46,839 bases of DNA from Acidobacteriota bacterium (GTDB taxonomy: Bacteria; Acidobacteriota; Vicinamibacteria; Vicinamibacterales; UBA2999), in assembly GCA_016789705.1 (NCBI GenBank), contig JAEUQR010000199.1, positions 1 to 46,839 on the forward strand. Direction: 5' to 3'. The translations under genes and the position numbers were made by a program. This document shows positions 16,401 to 41,747 of the stretch, piece by piece (within the stretch, counting starts at the first letter, position 1; each line of letters starts with the position of its first letter). A model generated the notes under the pieces. That model was not told the DNA's origin. It did no database searches and saw only the letters and a list, made by a program, of their open reading frames with translations.

Positions 16401-16604
16401 TCAGACGAGCTGGACGTTGCCCGCCTGCGGACCCTTGGGCCCGTCGACGATTTCGAACTCGACGCCCTGACCCTCTTCGAGGGAGCGGAAGCCCGAGCCC
16501 TGGATCGCCGAGTAGTGGACGAACACGTCGCTGCCGCCCTCGCGCTCGATGAAGCCGTAGCCCTTGGCGTTGTTGAACCACTTGACCTTGCCTGTGATAC
16601 GCAT
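16401..16604 (-). CDS. Cold-shock domain protein (CspA family)
   Basis: A 67-residue single cold-shock domain that binds single-stranded RNA or DNA as a chaperone. Both RNP motifs are present: RNP1 in KGYGFIER and RNP2 in DVFVHYSAI. The ATG at 16604 is preceded by AGGAAG. It has a roughly 130-nt leader from a near-consensus promoter, with an intrinsic terminator inside that leader. Whether it responds to cold cannot be read from the protein. Confidence 0.93.
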
Positions 16605-16680
16605 CGTTCTTCTTCCTAGCTTGCTGTGGCTCGCGCCACCTTACATCCGACCCCAGACCCCCGGGCGGGCGCCAGAGCCA

Positions 16681-16708
16681 CGAAAAAAGGCCGCGCGATC
16701 GCGGCCTT
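16681..16708 (-). terminator. Intrinsic terminator inside the cspA leader
   Basis: On the minus strand, AAGGCCGCG, loop ATCG and CGCGGCCTT form a 9 bp stem that runs straight into a T-rich tract. It lies between the promoter at 16740-16769 and the coding start at 16604, so it can only act on cspA leader RNA or on antisense RNA from purH. Confidence 0.65.
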
Positions 16709-16739
16709 CCGCGTCCCCACGGGGGGAACCGCAACATGG

Positions 16740-16769
16740 ATGATACCGACCGGTGTCTCCAAGTGTCAA
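16740..16769 (-). promoter_or_regulatory. Near-consensus promoter of cspA leader
   Basis: On the minus strand TTGACA (16769-16764) is followed after 18 bp by TATCAT (16745-16740). This is the best sigma-70-like match in the window. Transcription would start near 16733. Confidence 0.65.
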
Positions 16770-16846: not shown

Positions 16847-18451
16847 ATGCGACGTGCGCTCCTCAGTGTGTCTGACAAGTCCGGCCTTCTCGACTTCGCC
16901 CGCGGCCTCACGACCCGCGGCTTCGAGCTCGTCTCGACAGGAGGCACGGCCGCGGCGCTGACCGCGGCCGGCCTGCCGGTGACCAATGTGTCCGACGTGA
17001 CCGGCTTTCCCGAGATGATGGACGGGCGCGTCAAGACGCTGCATCCGCTCATCCACGGCGGGATCCTGGCGCGCCGGCACGAGCCGCACGACCTGGAATC
17101 GGCGCGCGCCAACGGCATCGGCCTCATCGACCTCGTGGCCGTGAACCTCTACCCGTTCGCGAGGACCGCCGCCAATCCGGCGGCCACCTTCGATGAGCTC
17201 ATCGAGAACATCGACATCGGCGGCCCGAGCATGGTGCGGGCCGCGGCGAAGAACTTCCGCGACGTCGTCGTGGTGGTCGACCCGGCCGACTACGGTGCCG
17301 TGCTGGCGTCACTCGACGGCGACGGGCCGTCGCCGGCCATGCGGTTCGACCTGGCGCGCCGGGCGCTCACCCACACGGCCGCCTACGACACGACCATTGC
17401 CGAGGTGCTCGACAGCGTCCGCTACGACGACGGCGGCACCCCGGTCCGTGAGCCCGCGGCGCTGGCGCCGGCCCGGCTGGTGGTGACCGCCACCAAGGTG
17501 CGCGACCTGCGCTACGGCGAGAATCCGCACCAGCCGGCGAGCTGGTACGCGATTGGCGGCGGCGACGGGCTGGGACGTCCGGCCATCGTCCAGGGGAAGG
17601 AGCTCTCGTACACCAACCTGCTGGATCTCGACGCCGCCGCGCGCATCGCCCTCGAGTTCGATGAGCCGGCGGCGGTGGTCATCAAGCACACGAACCCCTG
17701 CGGCGTGGCGATCGGCACGTCGGCGACAGACGCCTTCGAGCGTGCCCGCGAGGCGGATGCGCTCTCGGCGTTCGGCGGCATCGTCGGACTGAATCGTGCG
17801 CTCGACGCCGCCACGGCCAGGGCGCTCACCTCGACCTTCATCGAGGCCGTCGTCGCCCCGTCGGTGGACGAGGAGGCCAGGCCGATCCTCGCGGCGAAGC
17901 CGAACATGCGCGTCGTGGCCGCTGACACGTCGGCCTTTCAGGCGCCGGCCACGGCGGCGGCCTCGCGCGAGATCCGCTCGGTGCTCGGCGGCCTGCTCGT
18001 GCAGGCACGGGACATTGTCGCGGAAGCGCGTCTGGCCTGGCCGTGCGAGGGGGTGAAGGTCGTGACGAAGCGGGTGCCGACGGCGGAGGAATGGCGGGCT
18101 CTGCGGTTTGCGTGGCGCGTCTGCGCCCACGTCAAGTCGAACACGGTGCTGTTCGCCGATGCCGGACGCACGCGCGCCATCGGCGCCGGGCAGATGAGCC
18201 GCGTGGATGCCGTGCAGGTGGCCACGATGAAGGCGTCGGCCTGGCAGGCCGTGGAGCGTCCGCTCGCCGGCACGGTCGCCGCGTCCGACGCGTTCTTCCC
18301 GTTCCGCGACGGCCTCGACGCGGTGGCCCGCGCCGGGGCGACCGCGGTCGTCCATCCCGGCGGGTCGGTGCGCGACGCCGAAGTGATCGCGGCCGCCGAT
18401 GAACACGGCCTGGCGATGGTGCTGACCGGCCGCCGCCACTTCCGCCACTAG
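16847..18451 (+). CDS. purH: Bifunctional AICAR transformylase / IMP cyclohydrolase
   Basis: A 534-residue enzyme for the last two steps of purine synthesis. The N-terminal MGS-like cyclohydrolase domain shows SVSDKSGLLDFARGL, STGGTAAAL and GRVKTLHPLIHGG. The C-terminal transformylase domain shows LRYGENPHQPA and the catalytic KHTNPCG with Lys280 and His281. It starts at the ATG at 16847 and appears monocistronic, converging on hldA across 27 bp. Confidence 0.96.
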   Translation: MRRALLSVSDKSGLLDFARGLTTRGFELVSTGGTAAALTAAGLPVTNVSDVTGFPEMMDGRVKTLHPLIHGGILARRHEPHDLESARANGIGLIDLVAVNLYPFARTAANPAATFDELIENIDIGGPSMVRAAAKNFRDVVVVVDPADYGAVLASLDGDGPSPAMRFDLARRALTHTAAYDTTIAEVLDSVRYDDGGTPVREPAALAPARLVVTATKVRDLRYGENPHQPASWYAIGGGDGLGRPAIVQGKELSYTNLLDLDAAARIALEFDEPAAVVIKHTNPCGVAIGTSATDAFERAREADALSAFGGIVGLNRALDAATARALTSTFIEAVVAPSVDEEARPILAAKPNMRVVAADTSAFQAPATAAASREIRSVLGGLLVQARDIVAEARLAWPCEGVKVVTKRVPTAEEWRALRFAWRVCAHVKSNTVLFADAGRTRAIGAGQMSRVDAVQVATMKASAWQAVERPLAGTVAASDAFFPFRDGLDAVARAGATAVVHPGGSVRDAEVIAAADEHGLAMVLTGRRHFRH

Positions 18452-25750: not shown

Positions 25751-25825
25751 TGGGGCGTGGCCAAGCGGTAAGGCGCGGGCCTTTGGAGCCCGTATTCGAA
25801 GGTTCGAATCCTTCCGCCCCAACCA
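25751..25825 (+). tRNA. tRNA-Gln (anticodon TTG)
   Basis: A full cloverleaf. The acceptor TGGGGCG pairs with CGCCCCA, the anticodon loop is CTTTGGA with TTG, and the T loop is TTCGAAT. The 3' CCA is encoded. It lies between ispE and prs, as in many Proteobacteria. Confidence 0.95.
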
Positions 25826-29550: not shown

Positions 29551-29575
29551 CCGCCGGTCTCTCGCTGCCATCTCG

Positions 29576-29611
29576 CGGCCGGGTGCGTGCGCACCCGGCC
29601 GTTTTCTTTTT
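29576..29611 (+). terminator. Strong intrinsic terminator after rpsF-rpsR-rplI
   Basis: CGGCCGGGTG and CACCCGGCCG form a 10 bp stem with a 6-nt loop, followed by TTTTCTTTTT. It is the clearest terminator in the window. Confidence 0.9.
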
Positions 29612-39322: not shown

Positions 39323-39399
39323 GCTGGCGTAGCTCAGCCCGGTAGAGCGGCTGATTTGTAATCAGCGGGTCGTGGGTTCAAATCCCTCCGCCAGCTCCA
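39323..39399 (+). tRNA. tRNA-Thr (anticodon TGT)
   Basis: The acceptor GCTGGCG pairs with CGCCAGC, the anticodon arm CTGAT-TTGTAAT-CAG presents TGT, and TTCAAAT is in the T loop. The 3' CCA is encoded. It is the first of four tRNAs ahead of tuf, the thrU-tyrU-glyT-thrT order of E. coli. Confidence 0.95.
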
Positions 39400-39517
39400 C
39401 CGGCTGCAACGCCGGCTCGAACCAGGAACGCGAAGCAGCCCGGGGGAAATCCAGGACAGACATTTCAAGCGTGCGATGGCAAACGGCCACGAGTGCCGTC
39501 GCGCGGACGACGAGATT

Positions 39518-39604
39518 GGGTAGGTGGCGGAGCGGTCAATCGCAGCAGACTGTAAATCTGCCGGCCTTGTGCCTACGGAGGTTCGAATCCTCCCCTGCCC
39601 ACCA
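39518..39604 (+). tRNA. tRNA-Tyr (anticodon GTA)
   Basis: An 87-nt class II tRNA with a long variable arm. The acceptor GGGTAGG pairs with CCTGCCC, including a T-G wobble. The loop CTGTAAA gives GTA. The 3' CCA is encoded. Confidence 0.95.
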
Positions 39605-39678
39605 GCCTTCGCTTCGCATCGCGGAGCTTCGGCCAGGCAGCCACGACGGGGCCTGGTGAGGGCTGGGTACGACAGAAC

Positions 39679-39708
39679 GATGAGGTCCGGCCGCGGCCGG
39701 ACCTCATC
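39679..39708. repeat. 30-bp perfect palindrome between tRNA-Tyr and tRNA-Gly
   Basis: GATGAGGTCCGGCCG is followed directly by its exact reverse complement. In RNA it would be a very stable hairpin. No T tract follows, so a processing site is as likely as termination. Confidence 0.75.
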
Positions 39709-39771
39709 GCGGCAAGACAAGCGGATACGGGGTGTAGGCGGGCCTGCCTCGCCGATGCCCCGGGGGCGTAG

Positions 39772-39846
39772 GCGGGAGTAACTCAGTGGTAGAGTCACAG
39801 CCTTCCAAGCTGTTGGTCGCGGGTTCGATCCCCGTCTCCCGCTCCA
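39772..39846 (+). tRNA. tRNA-Gly (anticodon TCC)
   Basis: The acceptor GCGGGAG pairs with CTCCCGC, the anticodon loop contains TTCCA with TCC, and the T loop is TTCGATC. The 3' CCA is encoded. Confidence 0.95.
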
Positions 39847-39994
39847 GTCGTCAGGCAAGACCGGCCGCCGTGCCAGAGACGGTAGCCGGATAGGGAAGTC
39901 GGGGCAGGCGTCGGAGCCCCGGACCGGGACGAAGGCGGCACGCTGCCGGCGTCTCGAAGGGCAGGCCGACGCGTTGGCCTCAGCAGAGATGTAG

Positions 39995-40070
39995 GCCGAT
40001 GTAGCTCAGTTGGCAGAGCACGTCATTGGTAATGACGAGGTCACCGGTTCGATCCCGGTCATCGGCTCCA
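39995..40070 (+). tRNA. tRNA-Thr (anticodon GGT)
   Basis: The acceptor GCCGATG pairs with CATCGGC, the anticodon loop TTGGTAA gives GGT, and the 3' CCA is encoded. It is the last tRNA before tuf, 79 bp upstream of its start. Confidence 0.95.
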
Positions 40071-40149
40071 GAAGTCAGTTGGTTCGGAAGCTCGACGCCG
40101 GCACGGGGCCGGGTCGTCAGTCCGCAAACGAAGCGAGCGTAGACGAGTC

Positions 40150-41349
<1,200 letters not shown>

Positions 41350-41351
41350 GC

Positions 41352-41381
41352 GGGGCTCGGGACCCGGGTCTCGGGTCTCGG
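41352..41381 (+). repeat. 7-bp-period tandem repeat after tuf
   Basis: GGGGCTC, GGGACCC, GGGTCTC and GGGTCTC in 7-bp register plus GG. It is the left member of an inverted pair around the hairpin at 41406-41432. Confidence 0.8.
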
Positions 41382-41405
41382 AAATGCCAGGCCACTGATT
41401 GCTGA

Positions 41406-41432
41406 GCCCGAAGCGGTGTCCCCGCTTCGGGC
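41406..41432 (+). terminator. Stem-loop after tuf, terminator-like
   Basis: GCCCGAAGCG and CGCTTCGGGC form a 10 bp stem with a 7-nt loop. Only CTTAG follows, so termination would be weak or Rho-aided. Confidence 0.5.
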
Positions 41433-41435
41433 CTT

Positions 41436-41463
41436 AGTCCCGAGCCCCGGGTCCCGGGACCCG
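41436..41463 (-). repeat. 7-bp-period tandem repeat before rpmG, inverted
   Basis: AGTCCCG, AGCCCCG, GGTCCCG and GGACCCG in register; the opposite orientation to the array at 41352. Confidence 0.75.
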
Positions 41464-41482
41464 GTCAGCGAGCGAAGCGAGT

Positions 41483-41632
41483 ATGAGAGACATCATCCAG
41501 ATGGCGTGCGGCGACTGCAAGCGTCGCAACTACAGCACGACGAAGAACAAGAAGAAGACGACGGAGCGGCTCGAGATGAGCAAGTACTGCCGCTTCTGCC
41601 GCAAGCACACGGCTCACAAAGAGCAGAAGTAG
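41483..41632 (+). CDS. rpmG: 50S ribosomal protein L33
   Basis: A 49-residue zinc-type L33. [20 protein letters not shown] supplies the first CxxC and [14 protein letters not shown] the second. Its place between tuf and tRNA-Trp/secE is the usual one. Confidence 0.93.
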
Positions 41633-41671
41633 AACGGGTCCCGGGCGCTCATGTCCGGGTTCCGGCTTTGA

Positions 41672-41747
41672 AGGCCAATAGCTCAATTGGCAGAGCACCG
41701 GTCTCCAAAACCGGGGGTTGGGGGTTCGATTCCCTCTTGGCCTGCCA
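41672..41747 (+). tRNA. tRNA-Trp (anticodon CCA)
   Basis: The acceptor AGGCCAA pairs with TTGGCCT, the anticodon loop CTCCAAA gives CCA, and the T loop is TTCGATT. The 3' CCA is encoded after discriminator G. It lies between rpmG and secE as in many bacteria. Confidence 0.95.

Follow-up and report, generated by a model that had tools for sequence, protein, structure and literature searches.

A structured 5’ leader thought to control the level of the encoded cold-shock protein (Csp) is known from cspA of Escherichia coli, Agrobacterium and Listeria, where this leader or thermosensor (RF01766) acts on translation. Premature transcription termination in the 5’ UTR or ORF has been reported for E. 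coli cspB and cspG, where it is Rho-dependent (PMC7815308), and autoregulatory remodelling of E. coli csp 5’ UTRs is mentioned in a review (PMC8155936). Csps have also been reported to change read-through at intrinsic terminators of other genes. In E. coli, CspD is reported to attenuate termination at SgrS and to bind both the terminated and the read-through RNA, while CspA, CspC and CspE, as cited in the same study, decrease termination at metY-rpsO (PMC9765468). Work on Bacillus subtilis lacking CspB and CspD reported read-through to be increased at the man and lia terminators and decreased at that of pyr, with its authors concluding that these two proteins favour termination, a possible contribution coming from higher upstream expression; the same study reported expression to rise about twofold when the cspC 5’ UTR carried point mutations at or close to its cold-shock boxes (PMC8307031). 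Protein-autoregulated attenuators of the rplJL type in B. subtilis carry a promoter-proximal leader terminator before the gene of an RNA-binding protein (PMC4538822).

The csp leader described here, from an Acidobacteriota bacterium of the order Vicinamibacterales, shares features with each of these systems. Like the cspA thermosensor it is a structured csp leader with a likely role in setting Csp level, but its layout is that of a terminator. Like E. coli cspB and cspG it would involve premature termination, with an intrinsic hairpin and U tract in place of Rho. The position of its terminator is that of the rplJL-type attenuators, whereas no conserved antiterminator was found and autogenous control is only a candidate here. 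The proposed change of read-through by a Csp is of the kind reported, with differing sign, for E. coli and B. subtilis, with the difference that the terminator precedes csp itself. A full-text literature search, with most subscription journals outside its coverage, found no description of an intrinsic-terminator attenuator before csp, and the nearest published case is the Rho-dependent termination at E. coli cspB and cspG.

The window, meaning the whole stretch of 46,839 nucleotides that was analysed, contains the following features at the csp locus.

16740 to 16769, minus strand: promoter TTGACA-18-TATCAT, 11 of 12 consensus positions
16769-16764, minus strand: -35 element TTGACA, read directly
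16745-16740, minus strand: -10 element TATCAT, after an 18-nt spacer from the -35
about 16732-16711, minus strand: hairpin P1, GCGGTTCCCCCCGTGGGGACGC, at the predicted 5’ end of the RNA, from folding and covariation in relatives
16683 to 16708, minus strand: predicted intrinsic terminator with a 9-bp stem, ATCG loop and T tract, from sequence and kept in relatives
16708-16700, minus strand: terminator 5’ arm, AAGGCCGCG
16695-16687, minus strand: terminator 3’ arm, CGCGGCCTT, with the loop ATCG between the arms
16686-16683, minus strand: terminator tail TTTT
16605 to 16682, minus strand: read-through part of the leader, 78 nt, ending with the purine-rich AGGAAGAAGAACG before the ATG
16401 to 16604, minus strand: csp gene, cold-shock domain protein of 67 aa (Pfam CSD, E 1e-30)
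16847 to 18451, plus strand: purH, divergent neighbour outside the element (TIGR00355, 607 bits)

The observation made in an earlier note on this DNA was confirmed. The promoter directed towards csp was the sole promoter-like site found between 16200 and 17400 (50 dinucleotide shuffles: mean 0.0, sd 0.2). Transcription probably starts about 7 nt past the -10, near 16733, which places the 9-bp terminator about 25 nt into the RNA as had been described; the smaller stem GUUCCC/GGGGAC noted ahead of it lies inside P1, and the coding start, which had been put about 80 nt beyond the terminator, is the ATG at 16604, 78 nt past the T tract. The form of an intrinsic terminator is present, a G+C-rich stem being directly followed by six T, two of which pair with A while four remain as the tail. 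With our own scoring, two strong terminator-like sites were identified across both strands of the window, this one and another at 29575-29602 (plus strand), compared with zero in five mononucleotide-shuffled windows; a simple scanner with stricter tail rules did not report the csp-leader terminator. The PDB chains nearest to the encoded Csp are those of Bacillus CspB. The window also carries six tRNAs, five of them within 2.4 kb at 39323-41744 (plus strand) and one at 25751-25822.

Comparison with relatives in the order was made using 56 csp leaders, after removal of near-identical loci (L004, L034-L037, L039, L041) and of two other csp genes of the same genome (L002, L003). A recognisable terminator was identified in 50 of these, and all 50 were found to have a near-consensus promoter with 17-18 nt spacing upstream of it, taken as the best-scoring site upstream of each terminator (the shuffle control covered the window only). 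The distance from the -10 to the terminator 3’ arm was 38-57 nt, or 96-101 nt in three leaders with an insert. In the six others the tract was lost (L018, L020, L038) or the terminator otherwise lost or degraded (L014, L132, L134), and these lie outside a larger set of 105 leaders, from which three identical leaders (L179, L201, L220) and L231 were also omitted. Within the larger set, two promoters scored lower (L206, L232), a run of at least six T was present in 103 leaders, and the distance from U tract to ATG was 22-122 nt, being at most 45 nt in 18 leaders and at most 24 nt in six. Two leaders titled Acidimicrobiia (L035, L039) are identical to leaders of the window’s own family (L031, L015), and their titles look wrong. 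A second csp type in relatives (L137-L142) stands behind another kind of leader, in which GTAGTCGG and GACTCCGA or GCTCCGA recur; pairing between these elements is conceivable and would possibly make this another structured csp leader.

A covariance model of promoter, P1 and terminator (R1) was built from 47 sequences, leaders with long inserts (L026, L118, L120) being omitted from its training alignment A2. In the 5.03-Mb genome of the window R1 gave a single match with E below 1, that at csp (E 2.4e-10), the next (E 1.8) being the same hairpin on the opposite strand. Across the order it matched 110 of 162 genomes in 69 of 86 genera, with no match in the remaining 52 genomes. A further 60 matches were fetched, of which two (L179, L220) were identical to training loci (L033, L040), leaving 58, with L194 and L201 among them identical to each other over 110 nt. 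Of these 58 matches absent from the training set, 57 directly precede csp, the stem lying 27-113 nt from the start codon; the exception was L233 (E 0.007). Among the 59 genomes of relatives sampled for csp, 51 were also matched by R1; in five of the other eight (G006, G034, G042, G048, G053) no csp exceeded 70% identity, and in three (G014, G037, G049) the terminator before csp is degraded or missing. R1 still matches the genomes of L018 and L020, if weakly. Together with L038, L014, L132 (G049) and L134 (G037), the L018 and L020 loci keep csp and a promoter-like TTGACA with the terminator lost or degraded, and offer natural comparisons from which the role of the terminator could be read. Comparison across the order shows promoter, P1 and predicted terminator to be conserved together and tied to csp.

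Of 110 available leaders (50 + 60), 100 were aligned to the model for structure statistics. In this alignment, which is fitted to the structure and consists of related leaders whose counts are not independent, 82.4% of cells were paired compared with 71.5% in shuffles, and cells changed on both sides numbered 244, against 113 in shuffles and no more than 121 in slid controls. All eight P1 pairs showed changes on both sides; P1 was 69.5% paired and the terminator helix 94.5%, and the check for co-varying stem pairs proposed in the earlier note was in this way borne out for P1. Two of the five measures showed no excess, namely the number of pairs with changes on both sides (10 versus 9.2 in shuffles) and that of further pair types (40 versus 38.0). 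An alignment not fitted to the structure gave the same direction more weakly, with covariation of 0.219 compared with 0.171 in shuffles and at most 0.147 in slid controls and with P1 57.5% paired; here too, pairs changed on both sides (7 versus 7.9) and further pair types (26 versus 28.3) showed no excess over shuffles. RNAalifold on a MAFFT alignment returned five terminator pairs only. Independently of any alignment, segments upstream of the terminator fold better than their own shuffles (mean z -1.64, 103 leaders; L005 and L206 were dropped from the folding and antiterminator tests as a stem mismatch defeated the arm finder). The window’s own P1 segment is unremarkable by itself (z -0.7), and its 146-nt leader shows no excess fold stability over shuffles (z -0.44). 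Despite variable stems, many P1 loops in relatives are GGGCGGGCC (17 or more) or GGGCGTTCCC (10), and a shared GCG-type loop may be something recognised by a factor.

A conserved antiterminator pairing was sought in the leaders and was not found, either between upstream sequence and the 5’ arm (z 0.01), downstream sequence and the 3’ arm (0.10) or downstream sequence and the 5’ arm (-0.35). A GCGGUU/GGCCGC pairing was rejected for this role, as it occurs in the window’s clade and is not general. The lack of a conserved pairing that excludes the terminator speaks against a classical two-state RNA attenuator or riboswitch, and in favour of either a factor acting in trans or a constant leak. No conserved single-stranded landing site for Csp was seen upstream of the terminator in the compared leaders. 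A leader peptide in the ATG frame at 16737-16393 was likewise rejected, because the corresponding position of L007, a leader from the same genus, lacks this frame. Rfam 15 at gathering thresholds gave no family in the leader, nor in 14 loci including the window’s own; weak matches to suhB (E 0.73) and Leu_leader (E 1.4) were taken as chance, and RF01766 reached 26.4 bits against a gathering threshold of 78, in the coding part.

The layout of a csp attenuator is present by sequence, with the predicted terminator between promoter and start codon and retained with csp. A conserved promoter-proximal terminator belonging to csp is considered real, its most likely role being that of an attenuator. 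The interpretation of the earlier note was partly supported, the attenuator layout that it proposed finding strong support in comparison, with matches outside the training set adjoining csp, P1 covarying and the terminator retained. Since the promoter has been retained along with the terminator, production of csp mRNA should depend on read-through. We infer that the hairpin terminates transcription with an efficiency that is regulated, and we give a probability of roughly 0.6 to the reading in which the leader attenuates csp transcription close to the promoter and is tuned in trans, with Csp as the leading candidate for the factor. RNA polymerase would start at the TTGACA promoter, P1 would form at the 5’ end of the RNA, and the polymerase would then meet the terminator about 45-60 nt into the RNA, where most transcripts should stop. 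Since no RNA-encoded antiterminator pairing is conserved, modulation most likely comes from a protein or from the state of polymerase and RNA (e.g. through temperature). Csp itself is suggested as the leading candidate because Csps have been reported to change read-through at intrinsic terminators.

The best-surviving alternative, which we nevertheless regard as improbable, is that the terminator lowers csp output from a strong promoter by a constant factor and that read-through is unregulated. The lack of a conserved antiterminator, and of a conserved binding site seen upstream, would agree with such a fixed leak. However, a weaker promoter would achieve the same, and the keeping of a near-consensus promoter together with a strong terminator across the order appears to fit conditional read-through better.

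It is rather less likely that the 45-60-nt RNA of P1 and terminator is the main product, with read-through into csp secondary. A promoter, a short structured RNA and a terminator are the form of a small-RNA gene, and a tiny stand-alone RNA had been offered in the earlier note. This suggestion was weakened by comparison, as the predicted short RNA differs among relatives in its unpaired parts, the recurring P1 loops excepted. Almost all matches outside the training set (57 of 58) lie directly before csp, and in six of the 105 leaders csp would be left without a possible promoter after the terminator.

Slightly less probable again is a structured mRNA leader in which hairpins and U tract act post-transcriptionally, on translation, stability or Csp binding, in the manner of the cspA thermosensor. 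Known csp leaders are reported to act so (PMC8079631, PMC3738593), and GUCUUU, which resembles the heptamer d(GTCTTTG/C) reported for CspB (PMC7825780), was found at the 3’ arm and U tract in 53 of the 105 leaders. The minimum-energy fold of the window’s 146-nt leader moreover lacks the terminator hairpin and pairs its arms elsewhere. Against this, a GC-rich stem followed immediately by 6-9 T in 103 of the 105 leaders is the form of an intrinsic terminator, and the stretch past the U tract varies in length from 22 to 122 nt. Little weight was given to GUCUUU, because the window itself has GCCUUU and because the U tract sits inside the polymerase at the moment of the termination decision.

The weakest alternative, raised in the earlier note itself, is that the hairpin only guards against RNA from the purH side, with the csp promoter further down; terminators between genes are common, but purH points away, a near-consensus promoter stands just upstream in all 50 terminator-bearing leaders, and a second promoter is neither predicted after the hairpin in the window nor given room in six leaders, so that this reading is very improbable. 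Since at most 24 nt in those six leaders fits little beyond a ribosome-binding site, a csp promoter downstream of the hairpin is hardly possible. Because purH is divergent, no upstream gene reads into the leader, and a terminator of an upstream operon was rejected. In 26 of 33 loci, the divergent strand upstream shows a purH-like N-terminus. Automated orientation of neighbours gave 28 of 33 loci as divergent and five as the same; four of the latter (L004, L006, L007, L011) are read as spurious frames antisense to purH, and L018 as having a different neighbour.

Outside the order, R1 hit 12 genomes (E 7e-5 to 0.009), and in no case did the sequence retrieved around the match contain csp. These matches (L251, L252, L254-L263) consist of a promoter, hairpin and T tract away from csp, and are perhaps small-RNA genes. 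Among 53 csp loci of other Acidobacteriota, chosen by similarity to one Terriglobia Csp or from csp relatives and scored at csp loci alone, a strong hairpin with a T tract was found in 13, with sequences unrelated to R1. In nine of the 53, a TTGAC promoter (9 or 10 of 12) was present with its -10 ending 56-86 nt before the hairpin end, making a csp attenuator layout in these bacteria a lead from sequence; L292 was added by eye. Hairpins of a similar kind were also seen ahead of csp in L042, L045 and L048 (Methylomirabilota) and in L087 (Gemmatimonadetes). The Bacillus csp leader L064 has a long hairpin about 75-125 nt before csp, with a T tract inside the stem followed by the outer arm.

If the leader is an attenuator tuned in trans, the direction of a Csp effect would have to be considered. 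Antitermination, which the earlier note had assumed, is the E. coli sign, whereas favouring of termination is what the B. subtilis study concludes for CspB and CspD (PMC8307031). The Csp encoded here is CspB-like, and the sign could thus go either way; by analogy with B. subtilis CspB and CspD we lean slightly towards negative feedback, in which Csp would favour termination, over antitermination of the E. coli type. A dedicated autogenous attenuator, through which Csp would set its own level by termination in its own leader, kept across Vicinamibacterales and with unrelated stems elsewhere in Acidobacteriota, is put forward tentatively, as a possibility with the odds against it. The same layout with unrelated stems in other Acidobacteriota suggests that such control may have arisen more than once. 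The csp leader is a conserved RNA element without an Rfam 15 match at gathering thresholds, and a terminator before csp itself would be a simple natural template on which the contradiction between E. coli and B. subtilis over the sign of Csp action could be tested. The attenuator, if true, would place control of csp at transcription termination in a large and little-studied bacterial group, the conserved stop signal suggesting itself as the point at which the supply of the RNA-binding protein is determined.
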